64,000 nt of DNA from Candidatus Binatia bacterium (lineage in GTDB: Bacteria; Desulfobacterota; Binatia; Bin18). The position numbers were made by a program, and so were the translations under genes. A model generated the notes under the pieces. It ran no database searches and had not been told where the DNA came from. It saw only the letters and a program-made list of their open reading frames with translations. Of the stretch, positions 12,427 to 23,209 are shown piece by piece. Within the stretch, counting starts at the first letter, position 1; every line of letters begins with the position of its first letter. The DNA is taken from the NCBI GenBank assembly GCA_951812575.1, contig OX638322.1, positions 3,414,501 through 3,478,500 on the forward strand, read 5' to 3'.

Positions 12427-12446
12427 CGGTGGGGAAGGGCCGCTGT

Positions 12447-15400
12447 ATGCAGAAGGACAACGGACGGTATTATTACAGCCCGAGCGACCTGCATGAATTT
12501 CTTGCCTCGCCGTTTGCGACGTGGATGTCGCGCTACGCACTGGACTCTCCCGACCTGGCTCAGCCCGACCCCGAACCGCTCTCACTGACCACGATCACCG
12601 AACGGGGACGAAAACATGAACAGGCGTGTCTGACCCAACTTCGACAAGAGGGACGGGAGGTTTATACGCCACCTGCGGACGCCGACCGGGTTGAGGCGAC
12701 CATAACGGCAATGCAGACCGGCCACGAAGTCATCTACCAAGGCTGGCTACAAAACGGCGCGGTCCAAGACCTTCGACCCGAGTATTTTCTCGGCCGGCCC
12801 GACTTTCTGGTGCGGACTGCTGGGCCGTCCGCTCTGGGCAACTATGGCTACGAGGCGTGGGATGCCACCCTCGCCACGCAGCCGAGTCCGGCACGTCTGA
12901 TTCAACTCTGCTGCTCCGCCGACCTGCTCCGGACCGTTCAGGAGCACCGGCCGGATTCGATGCTGCTCTGGCTCGGCTCCGGTGAACGCCGCCGCTTTCG
13001 GACCGCCGACTTCATCTACTACTATCTCGCTCTGAAACGGGCCTTTTTGGCTTATATGCGGCACTTTGATCCAGCGGTACAGCCCAGTCCGGAGCTTGGC
13101 GGGGACTACGGCCGCTGGACTGCGCAGGCGACCCGGATACTTGAGACAGCCGACCATCTGAGCCGTGTGGCCAATATCAGCGTGAGCCAGATTCAGAAAC
13201 TCAACGCAGCCGGCATCCCTACGCTGACCTCCCTGGCAGAGTCCACGCTGACGCATGTCCCAAGAATCGAGGACGCGGTGTTTGCCCGGCTCAAGGAGCA
13301 GGCGCAGTTGCAAGCCGCCTCGGTCGGGGCCGACCGGCCAGCCTATCGGATTCTTCTCTCTGACCCGCCGGCTGACCCACCGGCCCAGCGGCGGGGTTTA
13401 GCCCTGCTGCCTCCGGCCTCTCCGGGGGACATCTTTTTTGATATGGAGGGCTATCCGCTGGTGAAAGGCGGACTGGAATATCTCTTTGGCGCGCTGACGC
13501 CTGATGACGGTCAGCGCGTGTTCCACGACTGGTGGGCGCATGACATCGATCAGGAACGGCGGGCCTTTTGTGATTTTATCGATTGGGTCTACGCCGGCTG
13601 GCAGGCCGACCCCACGCTACATATTTATCACTACGCCAATTACGAGGTGGCCGCGCTGCGGCGGCTGATGGGTCGGCACGGCAGCCGAGAAGCCGAAGTT
13701 GACGCACTCCTGCGCCACGAGGTCTTTGTTGATTTGTATGCCGTCGTCCGGCACGGCGTGCGGGTCGGCGAGCCACACTATTCGATTAAAAACCTCGAAC
13801 GTTTATACCGGCCCGCACGGGCCGGGGAGGTAACGAGCGCGGTTGACTCCATTGCGGTCTACGAACGCTGGCTGGCGAGTGGCGAGTCCCAAGACTGGAC
13901 CGCCTCTCCGCTGCTCCAGGCGATTCGCGCCTATAACCGAGACGACTGTGAATCAACCTGGCAGTTGACCTGTTGGCTTCGGGAGCGTCAGCAGGAAGCC
14001 GGGATTGAGTTCATTGAGTCTGTTGAGTCTGTTGAGTCTGTTGGGTCGGACCCAAAGGACCCAACCGACCCAAAGGACCCAACCGACCCAAAGGACCCAA
14101 CCGACCCGACCGGCCTCTCCCGGCTGCTGGGACACACGGTTGAATTTCATCGTCGGGAGGCGAAACCAGTGTGGTGGGCGATGTTTGACCGTCACGCCAT
14201 GACCGAAGAAGAGCTGGTGCAGGATATGCACTGCTTAGGCGGTTTAAGGCGGCTCTCACAGCCACCGGAACCCATCAAACGCTCTTCCGGCTTCTGGTAT
14301 CGTTTCGACCCCAACCAGGAGACCAGGCTGAATGTTGGAGACAGGTGCTATTTTGCCCATGATCTTGAGGTGAAAATACCCATTCAGGCCGTGGACCAAG
14401 AGCGGGGACGTATTTGTCTCAAGTTCAGTCCACAGCGGCTGAAGCAGCTTCCGAATGGCCTACCGCCGGACTCGCTTTCACTGATTCCGGATGAATACGT
14501 CTCCGCCCAGGTGATTGAAAATGCCGTCAGGGATGTCGCCCAAACCTGGCAGGAAGAAAACCGACTCCCGGCCGCGCTGCACGACTTTCTTCTGCGGCGG
14601 CCCCCGCGGGTTGGGTCAGTTGAGTCGATTGGGTCAGTTGAGTCGATTGGGTCAGTTGAGTCGATTGGGTCAGTTGAGTCGATTGGGTCAGTTGAGTCGA
14701 TTGGGTCAGTTGAGTCGATTGGGTCCTTTGAGTCGATTGGGTCCTTTGAGTCCGACCCAACAGACCCCAAAGACTCCACAGACTCAACAGACCTCTCCCA
14801 CGCCGTTCTTCGGCTGGTCGAGTCGCTTGACCACTCAACCTTGTGTCTGCAAGGTCCGCCGGGCAGCGGCAAGACCACGCTGGGCGCCCGGACGATTCTG
14901 GCCCTGCTGGACCGAGGCAAGCGCGTGGGTATTACCGCCAACAGCCATGCCGCCATTCTCAACCTCATGCGCAAATGCAAGGAACTGCGGCAGGGGCAAC
15001 TGGAATGCCTCAAAATAGGCGGTCCGGCTGAGGAGCGGTTTTTTGAGCTATGTCCCGAGGCGAGCTATGTCCCGCGTGTGCGGGATGCGATTCCACGCCT
15101 GGAGCAGTTTCGGCTGCTTGGAGGAACGGCTTGGGCGTTGAGCGACCCTGGGCTGCGGGGCAAGCTTGACTATCTCTTTGTGGACGAGGCCGGTCAGGTG
15201 TCGGTGGCCAACCTCATGGGTATGGCCGCGGCTACGGATAACATCGTCCTGTGCGGCGATCAGATGCAGTTGGGTCAACCGGTCCAGGGCGCGCATCCCG
15301 GAGAGAGCGGTCTGTCCATTCTCGAATACTTGCTCCAAGGGAAGGCGACCATCCCGCCCGATATGGGTGTGTTCTTAGCGACGACGTGGCGGCTGCATCC

Positions 15401-15998
15401 TGAGATCTGTCATTTTTTATCTGATGCAGTGTACGAAGGGCGCCTCCACGCCGCGCCTCAAACGGCCCAGCGGCGCGTATGCCTGCCCCAAACAGGGAGC
15501 GGAATCATTACCCAGGAAGCCGGTCTGGTTTTTGTCCCCGTGTCGCACGAAGGCAATACGCAGGCGAGTGACGAGGAGGTACAGGCGGTCCGCGAGGTAG
15601 TTGGCGAACTGCTTGGCCGGGACATCACGGATACGACCGGACAGCGGCTGCGGCCGTTGCAACTGTCCGACATTCTGTGTGTTGCCCCGTACAATCTGCA
15701 GGTGCGCAAACTCCAGGCGGCTTTGGGGCCGGAGGCCAGGGTCGGTACGGTCGATAAATTTCAGGGTCAGGAAGCGCCGGTCGTCATTCTGTCCATGTGC
15801 GCCAGTCAGGGCGATACGTCTCCACGCGGGATCGACTTTCTGTTTCACAAGAATCGACTCAACGTGGCCCTCTCACGCGCCCAGAGTCTGGCCATCGTGG
15901 TGGCCAGCCCGGCCCTGGCCCGGACCCGCTGCCAGTCCCTGGCCCATATGGAACAAGTGAATCTGTTTTGTCGTATGATGGAGGAGGGAAAACAGTAA
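12447..15998 (+). CDS. TM0106-type RecB-like nuclease fused to superfamily 1 helicase
   Basis: A protein of about 1183 residues. The N-terminus (YYYSPSDLHEFLASPFATW) and the central FDMEGYPL, GLEYLFG and YNRDDCE motifs match the TM0106 family: a RecB-like and RNase H-like nuclease region. The C-terminal third is a UvrD/Dna2/NAM7-type helicase with Walker A QGPPGSGKTT, VDEAGQVS, DKFQGQEAPVVILSM and NVALSRAQS. It is likely to act in nucleic-acid processing or repair. Two low-complexity linkers, around residues 520-556 and 722-783, are encoded by 9-bp tandem arrays and separate the nuclease, middle and helicase parts. The ATG at 12447 follows GGGGAAGGG; a GTG at 12429 is possible. Confidence 0.85.
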   Translation: MQKDNGRYYYSPSDLHEFLASPFATWMSRYALDSPDLAQPDPEPLSLTTITERGRKHEQACLTQLRQEGREVYTPPADADRVEATITAMQTGHEVIYQGWLQNGAVQDLRPEYFLGRPDFLVRTAGPSALGNYGYEAWDATLATQPSPARLIQLCCSADLLRTVQEHRPDSMLLWLGSGERRRFRTADFIYYYLALKRAFLAYMRHFDPAVQPSPELGGDYGRWTAQATRILETADHLSRVANISVSQIQKLNAAGIPTLTSLAESTLTHVPRIEDAVFARLKEQAQLQAASVGADRPAYRILLSDPPADPPAQRRGLALLPPASPGDIFFDMEGYPLVKGGLEYLFGALTPDDGQRVFHDWWAHDIDQERRAFCDFIDWVYAGWQADPTLHIYHYANYEVAALRRLMGRHGSREAEVDALLRHEVFVDLYAVVRHGVRVGEPHYSIKNLERLYRPARAGEVTSAVDSIAVYERWLASGESQDWTASPLLQAIRAYNRDDCESTWQLTCWLRERQQEAGIEFIESVESVESVGSDPKDPTDPKDPTDPKDPTDPTGLSRLLGHTVEFHRREAKPVWWAMFDRHAMTEEELVQDMHCLGGLRRLSQPPEPIKRSSGFWYRFDPNQETRLNVGDRCYFAHDLEVKIPIQAVDQERGRICLKFSPQRLKQLPNGLPPDSLSLIPDEYVSAQVIENAVRDVAQTWQEENRLPAALHDFLLRRPPRVGSVESIGSVESIGSVESIGSVESIGSVESIGSVESIGSFESIGSFESDPTDPKDSTDSTDLSHAVLRLVESLDHSTLCLQGPPGSGKTTLGARTILALLDRGKRVGITANSHAAILNLMRKCKELRQGQLECLKIGGPAEERFFELCPEASYVPRVRDAIPRLEQFRLLGGTAWALSDPGLRGKLDYLFVDEAGQVSVANLMGMAAATDNIVLCGDQMQLGQPVQGAHPGESGLSILEYLLQGKATIPPDMGVFLATTWRLHPEICHFLSDAVYEGRLHAAPQTAQRRVCLPQTGSGIITQEAGLVFVPVSHEGNTQASDEEVQAVREVVGELLGRDITDTTGQRLRPLQLSDILCVAPYNLQVRKLQAALGPEARVGTVDKFQGQEAPVVILSMCASQGDTSPRGIDFLFHKNRLNVALSRAQSLAIVVASPALARTRCQSLAHMEQVNLFCRMMEEGKQ
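14004..14112 (+). repeat. Mirror-image 9-bp tandem array 1 inside helicase gene
   Basis: Units of 9 bp of the form GAGTCTGTT run forward about four times. After GGGTCGGACCC the array flips to the reverse-complement form, alternating AAAGGACCC and AACCGACCC. The two halves can pair into one long hairpin. In the reading frame the array encodes ESVESVESVGS and then DPKDPTD repeats, with every unit being three codons. Confidence 0.9.
14611..14792 (+). repeat. Mirror-image 9-bp tandem array 2 inside helicase gene
   Basis: An 18-bp double unit made of GGGTCAGTT and GAGTCGATT is repeated six times. Variants with GGGTCCTTT follow, then after GAGTCCGACCC the reverse-complement units (AACAGACCC, CAAAGACTC, CACAGACTC, AACAGACC). 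It encodes GSVESI repeats ending in DPTDPKDSTDSTD. The unit consensus GRGTCnnTT is the same as in array 1. Confidence 0.92.
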
Positions 15999-16348: not shown

Positions 16349-17791
16349 CTACGCGTTTGACACCGCTTGGCACGCCGCCCGAATATCTTCCAGACACATC
16401 TCCAGGCGATCCTGGTGAGTCCGAAAACATAACGCACAGATACGGATAGCAAATCGGTCACCCAGCATCGTACCGGTCAGCAGGACCCGTTTGCGGGCAT
16501 TGATGGCTTGAAGCCAGGTATGATTCAGTGCGTTGAGAGCGGGCGTATCCAATCCGGGTCGGTTCAGCCGAAAGGCGACAATGGATAATTGCGGCTCGGC
16601 AACAATTTCAGTCTCCGGGATTTTTTTGAGCTCGGCGGTGGCCCAGGCGGCTAGATCGAGTTTTTCCTCCAGGGCCTGCCGAAAGGGCTGAATGCCGTGC
16701 ATCTTGAGGGGCAGCCAGACGCGCAGACCGCGAAAGTCGCGCGAGAGTTCGGGCGAGATCTGGCAAAAATCTACGCAATCGGGATCATCCTGCATGGTCG
16801 GCAGATAGGCGGCTGCCTCACCTTGATGCGCCCGCTTGAGGGCCTCACGCTCCCGCACGAGAAGAGACCCGGTGCCAAAAGGAAGAAAGAGGCCCTTATG
16901 CGGGTCAAGGGTGATCGAATCCGCCCGCTCAATTCCGCCTAATCGAGCCCGACCACGCTGGGTCAGCATAAAGAAGCCACCGTAGGCCGCGTCAACATGC
17001 AGCCAGAGCCCGTGTTGGTGGGCAATATCGGCCAGGGCAGTGAGATCGTCTACTGCGCCCGTATTCGTCGTCCCTGCGTTTCCGAGAATGAGAAATGGAG
17101 TAAGACCCGCCTGCCGGTCCGCCTCGATGTGCTGCTGTAAGGCATCGAGCCGGATGCGGAACTGTTCGTCGGTTGGAATCTCCCGAACGTTGTGAGCAGG
17201 AAATCCGGCCAGCAAGGCTGCCTTCTGAACCGAATGGTGGGTCTGGCTTGAGGTGTAGAGCGTACCGGCCAGAAAATCCTCGGGCAGGCGCTCCCGGCGG
17301 GCGGTAAAAATGGCCGAGAAATTTGCCAGCGAACCCCCGGTAGTCAGAAACCCACCGGCAGAGGGTGGATAGCCGGTAATATCGCAGAACCAGCGCACCA
17401 CATTGGCTTCAAGCTGGGCCAGGCCGGGGGATGCGGCCCAGACACCGACGTACCGATTCACCGCGTCACTAATCAGGTCAGCCACCGCGGCATGAAAGAT
17501 ACCGCCGCCGGGCACGTAGGCCAGATAGCCCGGTCCGGCGCAGTTGAAACTGCGAGGAATGGCGGTCTGGAACAGAATCTGCAAAAGCTCGGAGTATGCC
17601 TGTCCCTGCTCGGGCAGGGGCTCTCGCAGGCTGCGGGCGAGTTCGGCTCCGCCTTCGGTGTTGGCTGCCGGCTGGTCCGGTAAGGACTCAATATGGGCAG
17701 TAATATACTGCATCGCCTGGTCAACTAGGTGACGCATTTCGTCAGCCGAGGGCTCAAGCGGGAAAGACTCCGCTACGCTGTCGCTAGGCAT
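16349..17791 (-). CDS. PLP-dependent decarboxylase (group II, aromatic amino-acid/glutamate type)
   Basis: A 480-residue enzyme of the DDC/GAD family. Visible features are the GFLTTGGSLANFSAI segment that holds the PLP phosphate, HVDAAYGGF with the PLP-ring aspartate, and the Schiff-base lysine in TLDPHKGLFLPFGTG. The expected reaction is amino-acid decarboxylation to an amine and CO2; which amino acid cannot be read. It begins inside the last codons of the UGSC selenoprotein gene (8-bp overlap), so the two are probably translationally coupled. The long upstream extension of the open frame is not coding-like, and 17791 matches family N-termini. Confidence 0.9.
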   Translation of the reverse strand: MPSDSVAESFPLEPSADEMRHLVDQAMQYITAHIESLPDQPAANTEGGAELARSLREPLPEQGQAYSELLQILFQTAIPRSFNCAGPGYLAYVPGGGIFHAAVADLISDAVNRYVGVWAASPGLAQLEANVVRWFCDITGYPPSAGGFLTTGGSLANFSAIFTARRERLPEDFLAGTLYTSSQTHHSVQKAALLAGFPAHNVREIPTDEQFRIRLDALQQHIEADRQAGLTPFLILGNAGTTNTGAVDDLTALADIAHQHGLWLHVDAAYGGFFMLTQRGRARLGGIERADSITLDPHKGLFLPFGTGSLLVREREALKRAHQGEAAAYLPTMQDDPDCVDFCQISPELSRDFRGLRVWLPLKMHGIQPFRQALEEKLDLAAWATAELKKIPETEIVAEPQLSIVAFRLNRPGLDTPALNALNHTWLQAINARKRVLLTGTMLGDRFAIRICALCFRTHQDRLEMCLEDIRAACQAVSNA

Positions 17792-18326
17792 CGGCCTGTG
17801 TCTCGCCTTGCAACAGAATCTCGACGCATTGTCGTACGGCATCCACTGCCTTTTCGCGCAGGGTCTGCTCGGTATTGCTGGCAATGGGGTGGGGGATAAC
17901 GGCAAAAGGGTAGTCGGACATACCCTGGACCGTAGCCATGGCCTTAGCCGTTGGGACAAAACGATCGGTGATAATGGCGGTGGCCGCTACACCGGCCTTT
18001 TCGGCAGTCAGGGCATCGTGCAAACTGCACGATGAACAGCTGCCTCAATCACCGACCGCGGAAATGACCGCGTCACACGCTGCGAACCCTTTTGCGACAT
18101 CTTCAGGAACTGGACGGCTGGCATCCGGTTTGTGTAGGCGGATGACGGTACTGACGCCGTGTTGTGAACGCAGGAGTGTTTCGACGTGATTGAGCAAGAT
18201 GTCTACATTGAGCTTGCCGTTGTCGAGCAGGCCGACCGTCCGTCCGGCCAGAGAGGACAGGCGGGAGACGGTCGCCTGGGTCGCCTGGCCACCGTCAAAA
18301 GTTGGATCGAGAACGCGTAGTGTCAT
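17784..18326 (-). CDS. UGSC-family selenoprotein (in-frame UGA = selenocysteine)
   Basis: Two open frames that look like separate genes are one 180-residue protein if the UGA at 18047-18045 is read as selenocysteine. The product then reads AVGD-U-GSCSSCS, giving the U-G-S-C signature at residues 94-97 that names the UGSC (seleno)protein family. The downstream part has no ATG, only a TTG eight codons after the UGA. The ATG at 18326 has AAAGGAGTC upstream. A 9-bp hairpin starts 10 bases after the UGA. The family is thought to be a thiol/selenol redox protein; its substrate is unknown. It sits 12 bp after the gene for its usual larger partner and overlaps the decarboxylase. A nonsense mutation is the alternative. 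Confidence 0.85.
18014..18034 (-). promoter_or_regulatory. Candidate bacterial SECIS hairpin
   Basis: On the coding (minus) strand, 10 bases after the UGA, the arms CATCGTGCA and TGCACGATG form a perfect 9-bp stem around the loop GTT. The loop lies about 20 bases past the UGA. Bacterial SECIS elements recognised by SelB sit just after the UGA inside the gene, with an apical loop about 16-25 bases downstream that contains G and U. The hairpin is seen directly; its role is inference. Confidence 0.7.
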
Positions 18327-18338
18327 AGTATGACTCCT

Positions 18339-19379
18339 TTACGGGGTTTCGACGATCTGCGTGACAGCCTGCGACCGGGAACCCAACCACGGCGGCACAA
18401 TCGCCCCAAACCCACCTGCCGGACCACCGGCGGCAACCACCAGTAAATCGTCCGGTGAGCGTAAGGCGCTGAAGCGTTGGTCGGCTCCCTTGCCCAGGTT
18501 GACGACCTGCTTTTTTCCCACCGTAGCCCAGTCGCGGCGCACAACCTGGGCGGAACGGTAGATATATTCCTGGATATCACGCTTTTGCCACCCCGCGGCC
18601 GTAATGAGATCGCGTAGTTGTTTGGGAACGATCAGGGCATAATTCCCGGCCCAGATCGAATAGGTCAGCATATTGTGACGTATCTCCGCGGCAAAGGTCT
18701 CGGCGATTTCTTCCGGGTCGCGGGTCCACTCGTTCATGGTTTGGTGCGGGGACTCTCCCGCCATAACGGTGACCGCAGACGTACCGGCAGGAATGCCACG
18801 CTGTTGCGCGAGAGGTGTCCAGGGGCTGTCTTCTTCGTCTTCGGCAATACAGAAGCTGAATTTGCCCGGATGACCCAGGGTGGAGCGGTCGAGCTGTCCG
18901 GGCAGACAGCCCAGCACATTAATGAGTATGAGACGGATGGCACGGCCAATACAGGCATTGGCCCGGCTGTGATTAGCCAGGACATTATGGGTGGCGTTCA
19001 GCCCGATACGCTGTCGAATGGGGCCGTTGACCACAATAAACTGGGCACTGCCACCGGTGCTCGCCGTACTGCCGTGCAGATTGAACTCCGGCTGGCACAT
19101 GGCTTTGATTACGGCGACGACCACGGGCATATAGGCTGGCAGACAGCCCGCCATCACCGCATTGATGGCGACCTTCTCCCCGGTAATCGGACGTTGGCGG
19201 ACGGACTCGACGCCAATAACCGCGCTCGGTGCCAGGCCAGCCGCATCGAGACAGTCCTGAACCAGTTCCTCGGTAGGGGGAAGAATGGGCAGGCCGTCCG
19301 TCCAGCCGCGTTGGTGATACAGATCATTGACGGCGACGATATCGGCCAGGTCGTAGCTTGGGGACCGTAATTGCGTCAC
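18339..19379 (-). CDS. Conserved protein paired with UGSC selenoproteins
   Basis: A 346-residue soluble protein with DGLPILPPTEE near the N-terminus, EKVAINAVMAGCLPAYMPVVVA, and later HPGKFSFCIAEDEEDSPW. I recognise this as a widespread uncharacterised family often found next to or fused with UGSC proteins; no reaction is established to my knowledge. Conserved cysteines in AGC and SFC could be redox or metal ligands (inference). The start is GTG with AAAGG upstream. It follows the MFS gene by 3 bp and precedes the selenoprotein by 12 bp, so the cluster is an operon. Confidence 0.75.
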   Translation of the reverse strand: MTQLRSPSYDLADIVAVNDLYHQRGWTDGLPILPPTEELVQDCLDAAGLAPSAVIGVESVRQRPITGEKVAINAVMAGCLPAYMPVVVAVIKAMCQPEFNLHGSTASTGGSAQFIVVNGPIRQRIGLNATHNVLANHSRANACIGRAIRLILINVLGCLPGQLDRSTLGHPGKFSFCIAEDEEDSPWTPLAQQRGIPAGTSAVTVMAGESPHQTMNEWTRDPEEIAETFAAEIRHNMLTYSIWAGNYALIVPKQLRDLITAAGWQKRDIQEYIYRSAQVVRRDWATVGKKQVVNLGKGADQRFSALRSPDDLLVVAAGGPAGGFGAIVPPWLGSRSQAVTQIVETP

Positions 19380-21218: not shown

Positions 21219-21836
21219 CTAGGCTGCCAGGCGCTCGCGCACGCGGACCAGGCGCTCAGCGCCCCAGAACAGCTCGCCGTTGACCACATAGCTCGGGACA
21301 CCGAATACGCCCACCTTTTCGGCCTCGGCTTGTATGCGCTCCAACTCGCGGCGACCGTCGCCGTTCAGGTAATCGAGAAACCCCTGAGTATCGATACCGA
21401 CTTCTTCCAGCACGTGCTTTAGCACTTGGGGGTCCTCAATAGCCAGTTCGCGTTTCCAAAAGCGTTCATACACGAGTTGGTGGTAGGGCCGAAAATCCCC
21501 CTGCTGTTTGGCGTACAACATGCCGATATGGCTCAGCGAGGAGTCGAAAATATGGCGGGGTCCCCGAATCGTCAGACCGCGTCGCGTGGCCTCCCGCCGA
21601 CAGTCCATATAGCTGTATTTCACCCGCCGCCACTGATGGGCATTCCGCTCCTCAGCCATGACTTTGCCAGCGTTATCGACCTCGGCAGAACCCAGAAATT
21701 TAGGAATGTCCAGTGTCAACGGCAGAAAGTTTACTGTCACATCAAACTCGTTTTCGAGCTGAAAGGTTTCCTCTTGGGCAAGGTAGGCATACGGGCTCTT
21801 ATAATCAAAATAGTGGGTGATGGTGGTAATCGCCAT
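21219..21836 (-). CDS. DsbA-family protein, 2-hydroxychromene-2-carboxylate isomerase type
   Basis: A 205-residue thioredoxin-fold protein of the kappa-GST/HCCA isomerase branch. The N-terminus THYFDYKSPYAYLA has the SPYAY motif in place of a CxxC. The C-terminus has GVFGVPSYVVNGELFWGAER, the conserved cis-proline and GAER motif. Members isomerise hydroxychromene carboxylate in aromatic degradation or act as glutathione-dependent enzymes. The ATG at 21836 starts the fold exactly; the long upstream extension of the open frame is not coding. It diverges from the flavoprotein gene, with a REP-like hairpin between. Confidence 0.85.
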   Translation of the reverse strand: MAITTITHYFDYKSPYAYLAQEETFQLENEFDVTVNFLPLTLDIPKFLGSAEVDNAGKVMAEERNAHQWRRVKYSYMDCRREATRRGLTIRGPRHIFDSSLSHIGMLYAKQQGDFRPYHQLVYERFWKRELAIEDPQVLKHVLEEVGIDTQGFLDYLNGDGRRELERIQAEAEKVGVFGVPSYVVNGELFWGAERLVRVRERLAA

Positions 21837-21913
21837 ACGGGTGCTCCTGTCTTCGTGGTTGCGGCTCGAACCTAGCCTATCCGCCAGCCCTCCTGCAAGG
21901 GAGGACCATGTAG

Positions 21914-21935
21914 GGGCAACCCCCTGTGGTTGCCC
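21914..21935. repeat. REP-like intergenic hairpin
   Basis: GGGCAACC at 21914 and GGTTGCCC at 21928 form a perfect 8-bp stem with a CCCTGT loop. It lies between divergent genes. Similar GGGGCAACC-type palindromes are common dispersed intergenic repeats in many bacterial genomes. Confidence 0.5.
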
Positions 21936-21976
21936 GGCCCGTGCTCCAGTGCAATACACAAAACGAGGAGGACAGC

Positions 21977-23209
21977 ATGAGCAAGCGTATATCCACGGCG
22001 AAAATGGAACCACGCCGCAGGCGCTATCCCCGGGTTGGCTCACACGAGGAACTCGTCCGCCGGGCTCGGGCGCTGGCACCAATTCTCCGCCAACGCGCAC
22101 CGCATACCGATGATATCCGACACCTGCCCGATGAAACCCGCCAGGAACTGCGGGCGGCCGGTCTCGCCCGGATTCTCCAGCCGGCGCGCTATGGGGGGTG
22201 TGAGGCCCACCTGTCCGGTATGGTCGATATTCTGACGACGGTCGGCAGCGGCTGTGGTTCAACCGCCTGGTGTCTGGCCCAATACATCGGCCATAACTTC
22301 ATGGTTGCGCAGTGGCCGGAGCGTGCCCAGGAAACGGTCTGGGGGACGAGTCCGCAAAATCTGTTGAGCGGCATTCTCATCCCCCTTTTAGGCAAAGCCC
22401 GAAAGGTCCGGGGCGGGTATGAGCTGTCCGGGCAGTTTCCGTTTGTGAGTGGGGTCACGAGCTGTGACTGGTGCCTGTTTGCGGCCATGGTGGAAAACGG
22501 ACCGGGCGGCAAGCCTGAAGAGCGCTATTTCATCCTGCCCCAGGGCGCCTTTGAGATTCTCGATACCTGGGACGCCATCGGACTGCGGGGCTCGGCCAGC
22601 CACGATGTCAAAGCCGACCGCGTGTTTATCCCGACCCATATGACGCTACCGCTACGGCATCTGAAAGGCGGTGAGACGAGTCCGGGGCGCAAGGTCAATC
22701 GTGCGCCGCTCTACCGCTCACCCAGCTATATGACGTTCGGCATTCTCATCTCCAGCGCGTCGGTCGGAATCGCCGAGGGCATTGTGCGCGACTATGTTGA
22801 GCAGGTTAAAAGCCGGGTCACGCTCATGTCCGGCCAGGGCCTGCACGAGCAGGTGTTGCAACACACGAAAATTTCGGAAGCGACGCTGGCGGTCGAGGCC
22901 GCCAAAGCCCTACTGTACAGAAACTGCGACGAGATTATGCAGATCATCGAAGTGGGCGACCTGCCATCGCCCGAGCAGCGAACAAAATATCGTGCCGCGG
23001 GCGCTTACGCTGGCAAGCTGGCCTTCCAAGCAGCAAACCTGATCTGGGATGCTGGCGGCGGTCGCGGAGTGTATATGAATAACCCCATTGCGCGCGCCTA
23101 TCGCGATATCTGTACGGCAACCCGTCATTTTACCCATATGTGGGACGTAAACGGCGCGACCCACGGACGGGTCAGGGTCGGGCTACCTTTAGATAATCCC
23201 GCGCTGTGA
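21977..23209 (+). CDS. Acyl-CoA dehydrogenase-fold flavoprotein monooxygenase (group D, HsaA/HpaB-like)
   Basis: A 410-residue flavin protein of the acyl-CoA dehydrogenase fold. LPDETRQELRAAGLARILQP and GSGCGSTAWCLAQYIGHNF are the N-terminal helical-domain motifs of the oxygenase component of two-component flavin monooxygenases. The middle has SCDWCLFAAMV and WDAIGLRGSASHDV for flavin binding, and the C-terminus ends in the helical GAYAGKLAFQAANLIWDAGGG. These enzymes hydroxylate aromatic or steroid-derived substrates using reduced flavin from a separate reductase, not seen adjacent here. The ATG at 21977 follows AAACGAGGAGGACAGC. An acyl-CoA dehydrogenase role is the alternative. Confidence 0.82.
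   Translation: MSKRISTAKMEPRRRRYPRVGSHEELVRRARALAPILRQRAPHTDDIRHLPDETRQELRAAGLARILQPARYGGCEAHLSGMVDILTTVGSGCGSTAWCLAQYIGHNFMVAQWPERAQETVWGTSPQNLLSGILIPLLGKARKVRGGYELSGQFPFVSGVTSCDWCLFAAMVENGPGGKPEERYFILPQGAFEILDTWDAIGLRGSASHDVKADRVFIPTHMTLPLRHLKGGETSPGRKVNRAPLYRSPSYMTFGILISSASVGIAEGIVRDYVEQVKSRVTLMSGQGLHEQVLQHTKISEATLAVEAAKALLYRNCDEIMQIIEVGDLPSPEQRTKYRAAGAYAGKLAFQAANLIWDAGGGRGVYMNNPIARAYRDICTATRHFTHMWDVNGATHGRVRVGLPLDNPAL

Follow-up and report, generated by a model that had tools for sequence, protein, structure and literature searches.

The locus described here lies on the (-) strand of a window of 64,000 nucleotides (the whole stretch of DNA that was analysed), within a genome consisting of one contig of 5.18 Mb. 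Three genes follow each other closely, and in the order of transcription the features are as follows.

18339..19379, (-): partner gene, 346 residues, no Pfam or NCBIfam family; considered a partner from adjacency, fusions and mirror-tree comparison
18334..18339, (-): AAGGAG, Shine-Dalgarno sequence of the UGSC gene, which overlaps the partner's stop codon (sequence)
17784..18326, (-): UGSC family gene, almost certainly encoding a selenoprotein of 180 residues via one UGA (sequence, profile matches, purifying selection before and behind the UGA)
18045..18047, (-): UGA, putative selenocysteine codon, Sec94 of U94-G-S-C97-S-S-C100 (sequence)
18003..18044, (-): predicted bacterial SECIS hairpin immediately following the UGA; core of the apical stem 18031-18017, GUU loop 18025-18023
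16349..17791, (-): PLP-dependent decarboxylase (PF00282), start codon overlapping the end of the UGSC gene, same operon

One reading frame through a single UGA

The UGSC gene starts with the ATG at 18326-18324, preceded by AAGGAG at 18339-18334, and ends with the TAG at 17786-17784. Between them the frame is open with the exception of a single TGA, codon 94. It had been proposed in the original prediction that two open frames are joined here without shift through this one UGA, and direct reading confirms a continuous frame, the 180-residue product of which contains AVGDUGSCSSCSLHD. The ORF finder (table 11) reports the first 93 codons alone. The stop codon of the partner is located upstream at 18341-18339, and the decarboxylase begins, again as predicted, inside the last codons of the UGSC gene (ATG at 17791-17789, an 8-base overlap that includes the stop). 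Thus, the partner, UGSC and decarboxylase genes look like a tightly coupled operon.

Comparison of the joined product with the UGSC (seleno)protein family places it above the cut-offs of both curated models. It scores 142.3 bits with NF041046 (UGSC_fam; cut-off 125, residues 28-171) in a match that runs through the UGA, and 180.3 bits with PF24696 (cut-off 25, residues 5-172), which bears out the earlier identification of AVGD-U-GSCSSCS as the family signature. The U/C-G-S-C motif is present as U94-G-S-C97. Positions U/C94 and C97 are invariant in 117/117 sequences covering those columns; the third cysteine (C100 column) is not conserved (72/118). The UGSC family itself was already known by 2008, and PMC2398784 lists it among the most abundant selenoproteins of aquatic metagenomes. 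With the family as defined by NF041046, PF24696 and that paper, the protein shares the U-G-S-C motif, the size and the UGA with its SECIS, and it does not differ in kind; there are eight copies in this genome.

Relative to the closest orthologue dN/dS is 0.15 before the UGA and 0.12 behind it, and in more distant orthologues the half behind the UGA is the better conserved one. Judged from these sequences, the part of the gene behind the UGA is under purifying selection. Hence, we consider it almost certain that 17784-18326 constitutes a single, functional gene for a UGSC family selenoprotein. That it is a pseudogene, or two separate genes divided by an ordinary stop codon, as the table-11 call ending at codon 93 might suggest, is hardly credible given this strong selection, the UGA at the same codon in eight copies of the own genome and 75 loci elsewhere, the covariation of the SECIS hairpin and the complete selenocysteine machinery of the genome.

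Predicted selenocysteine insertion and the distribution of the family

The genome search for selA, selB, selC and selD, which had been put forward as a check, found all four components: SelA (525 bits), SelB (388.5 bits, cut-off 242), SelD (312 bits) and, beside selA, tRNA-Sec with the anticodon TCA (UCA; 70.7 bits, cut-off 47). The observation named as damaging to the prediction, a genome devoid of this machinery together with homologues lacking Cys or Sec, was not made; the homologues carry Sec and occasionally Cys, and the exceptions are few divergent fused paralogues, described below.

The hairpin behind the UGA folds with -22.4 kcal/mol (z -4.4). In an ungapped comparison of 107 distinct relatives, with positions counted from the UGA, 92-99% of the sequences form the core pairs 17-31 to 21-27, and about 92% have an apical loop that starts with GU. 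Across eight pairs the paired fraction amounts to 0.87; slid versions reach 0.13-0.54, and none of 200 shuffles exceeds 0.80. The eight copies of the genome show compensatory changes among themselves, namely C21-G27 to G21-C27 and U19-A29 to A19-U29 or G19-U29. The fused copy L009 does not form the stem in this register, and its stem appears shifted. Both the closing pair and the GU loop are lost in the Cys-form copies L051 and L110, too few (n=2) to count. An Rfam search of the region gave no SECIS-type match. In E. coli fdhF, too, SelB makes its contacts with G23 and U24 in the apical loop. We suggest that the hairpin following the UGA would direct the insertion of selenocysteine there by SelB and tRNA-Sec(UCA); the sequence strongly supports this step.

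A PF24696 search of this genome yields eight UGSC genes, seven besides that of the window, each with one TGA and no other stop within the match. Between 6 and 9 copies are present in genomes of the same genus, where each match listed likewise contains one TGA, and the family occurs in 30/297 genomes of the phylum sample. In named genomes 75/77 UGSC genes adjoining the partner have the UGA. The nearest named relative of the locus (L059) belongs to a Candidatus Binatia assembly and its partner is 95% identical. Such genes and their copies are lost where annotation stops at the UGA.

Two canonical copies have Cys in place of Sec. One (L051, motif CGSC) is in G092, the one UGSC-bearing genome that has no SelA match at all, and the other (L110, motif CAGC) is in a Geodermatophilaceae assembly. 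Comparing the occurrence of SelA with that of UGSC is hardly informative in this phylum, since 274/297 genomes have a SelA match. Neither Sec nor Cys is found in the fused paralogues L204-L209 with a UGSC domain (e.g. VYAVGDSGQGAW), which are divergent, have long frames and come from genomes (G033, G048, G208, G252) that hold many Sec-bearing copies; perhaps they are non-catalytic or have changed their chemistry. G198 has at least 11 UGSC genes (L033 and others), nearly all with the UGA, together with a weak SelA match (E 5e-4) and no tRNA-Sec above the cut-off, in an assembly rated 100% complete. The missing machinery is perhaps an assembly gap.

The partner gene

Starting from UGSC, the partner gene is found beside it in 36/37 loci; starting from the partner, UGSC is found within 6 kb in 77/80 loci of many phyla. 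Two of the three loci without UGSC are at contig ends, and L103 is the one real exception. Both gene orders occur. In 15 loci, including L009 of the own genome, the two are fused in one frame, always with UGSC first. Pairwise distances of the two proteins correlate with a mirror-tree r of 0.87 (permutation maximum 0.09), to which shared host ancestry contributes. The model of a natural fusion has a mean pLDDT of 91 and a pTM of 0.91. Conserved residues of the partner include E180, R146 and the VMAGC79 stretch, and the pair also occurs in Sheuella amnicola (L062), a cultivable relative.

The partner has no match in Pfam, NCBIfam or the PDB sequences and no detectable relation to either GrdE or GrdB, and in the structure search with the fused model the matches cover only the UGSC part. 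A fusion of UGSC with an unknown domain, ‘Unknown_1’, was reported already in 2008 (PMC2398784), and the 346-residue partner is probably this domain. What the present loci add is the 346-residue gene as a near-constant partner of UGSC. In view of this near-constant adjacency and the frequent fusions, we regard it as very likely that UGSC supplies the catalytic Sec subunit of a two-component enzyme, with the upstream 346-residue protein as its second component; this follows from comparison, and the two would accordingly be expected to bind physically.

The third gene of the operon is less general. Only L059 and L227, the two closest relatives, have the PLP-dependent decarboxylase next to UGSC, and no conserved third gene was found around the UGSC loci, where other neighbours recur in a minority of cases.

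Relation to glycine and proline reductases and a proposed function

The Pfam model of GrdB (PF07355) ends just before the selenocysteine; in related genomes the GrdB genes read through their own UGA into a tail, AVILTSTUGT[CS]TR[CS]GA...E+AGIP...IPHP, that is much like UGSC. Thus, (D/Q)AVILTSTUGTCTRCGAT...E+AGIP...IPHP of GrdB compares with DAVISAVGDUGSCSSCSLHD...EKAGVA...IPHP of UGSC. In hhalign the two Sec modules are related over ~95 residues with a probability of 96 and P 4.5e-9, Sec being aligned on Sec, whereas seven decoys (reversed, column-shuffled) give P 0.045 or more. TIGR01917 (GrdB) matches 10/21 UGSC members (best 7e-5), GrdF 7 and PrdB 4; for the window protein itself the TIGR01917 match has E 0.011. 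The UxxCxxC motif of the window protein is that given for GrdB in PMC13188914. These comparisons indicate that UGSC is distantly related to the C-terminal module that carries Sec in GrdB, with homology to that of GrdB, GrdF and GrdH (TIGR01917, NF040794, NF040795, PF07355), and, more weakly, to PrdB. To PrdB (TIGR04483) and the PrdB-like selenoproteins of the genome (VPVUPVC) the relation is distant, with Sec in the same place; the direct hhalign match is weak (P 0.009), the motif is UPVC rather than UGSC and the partners are different.

We rejected the possibility that the window protein is itself a GrdB: it reaches 14.6 bits against a full-length cut-off of 602, a search of this genome for GrdE (PF09338) found none, and the partner is unrelated to both GrdE and GrdB. 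UGSC is without the N-terminal part of GrdB, and the unrelated 346-residue partner takes the place of the pyruvoyl subunit GrdE. With such a partner and no GrdE in the genome, substrate activation must differ from that in glycine reductase. In the openly accessible passages of papers mentioning both, the link between UGSC and glycine reductase is not drawn, and priority is uncertain. The original prediction did not include the partner gene, the hairpin, the relation to GrdB or the seven further copies.

Three short PF07355 matches were also seen elsewhere in the genome (G000:C1:3365413-3365832, 2694302-2694754 and 2703469-2703783). The first of them (L146) reads on as VPVUPVCHQ with an in-frame UGA, and by sequence the genome likely encodes at least one further selenoprotein of the GrdB/PrdB-like superfamily.

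In the model of UGSC (pLDDT 92) strands and helices strictly alternate, and Sec94 immediately precedes the helix behind strand 3. The matches in structure searches are alpha/beta proteins of flavodoxin-like and Rossmann-like type, none of them specific, and no thioredoxin-fold entry stands among the 50 matches listed by either search. Hence, a flavodoxin-like alternating alpha/beta fold is predicted for the UGSC domain, in which Sec opens the helix behind strand 3. In the 2008 (PMC2398784) and 2026 papers UGSC is termed thioredoxin-like and is assumed to be a thiol/selenol oxidoreductase serving as a general redox partner. Its UxxC motif would suit such a role; the confident alternating model, the absence of thioredoxin folds from those matches, next best NCBIfam families of the GrdB type and not of the thioredoxin type, and the near-constant pairing with the 346-residue protein make it improbable, and the label itself gets no support from the model and profile comparisons.

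By analogy with GrdB, we tentatively propose that UGSC and its partner together make up a Sec enzyme of two subunits for the reductive cleavage of a carbon-heteroatom bond. The reaction may proceed as follows.

Step 1: The substrate would be held and activated by the partner, and the Sec94 selenolate would attack it, as analogy with GrdB suggests.

Step 2: A C-N, C-O or similar bond of the substrate would then be cleaved reductively, again by analogy.

Step 3: The resulting Sec94-Cys97 selenenylsulfide would be reduced by a cellular thiol system.

We also suggest that the different copies of a genome, lying among catabolic genes, may handle different substrates. The genes that recur near UGSC are mostly catabolic-looking by sequence (CoA-transferase, luciferase-like oxidoreductase, amidohydrolase, SDR), and none is constant. 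Such neighbours, together with the absence of any metal-binding family match above cut-off, speak against UGSC being a detoxification selenoprotein that handles metals, metalloids or reactive compounds with the partner as a binding or carrier protein. This alternative draws on the transporters near some copies, including the MFS transporter upstream in the window, and on a 2026 review in which part of the selenoprotein families are predicted to bind metals; we consider it unlikely.

Taken as a whole, the reading of a UGSC selenoprotein that works as one of two components with its partner, has a flavodoxin-like fold, is related to GrdB and would by analogy share its type of chemistry appears to us well founded, the chemistry being its most tentative part. 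The near-constant partner and the GrdB relation turn a ‘thioredoxin-like protein’ into a testable two-subunit reductase with Sec94 as the presumed nucleophile and Cys97 as the presumed resolving residue. More speculatively, UGSC and the partner could represent a widespread, so far unrecognised class of Se-dependent reductive bond-cleaving enzymes, combining the Sec module of glycine and proline reductases with a new substrate-activating partner and no pyruvoyl subunit, and occurring in soil, freshwater and marine bacteria as numerous copies, each specific for its substrate.

Two further observations concern other parts of the window. Upstream of the MFS transporter, 21219-22262 (-) encodes a DsbA-family protein (PF01323) with a weak match, far below cut-off, to the Rcas_1661 thioredoxin-like (seleno)lipoprotein family. 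Within an ORF of 1189 residues at 12429-15998 there are 18-base in-frame tandem repeats at 14005-14112 and 14611-14752 (GACCCAAAGGACCCAACC; TTGGGTCAGTTGAGTCGA, 7.9 copies, 98% match), which encode runs of SVESIG and DPKDPT.
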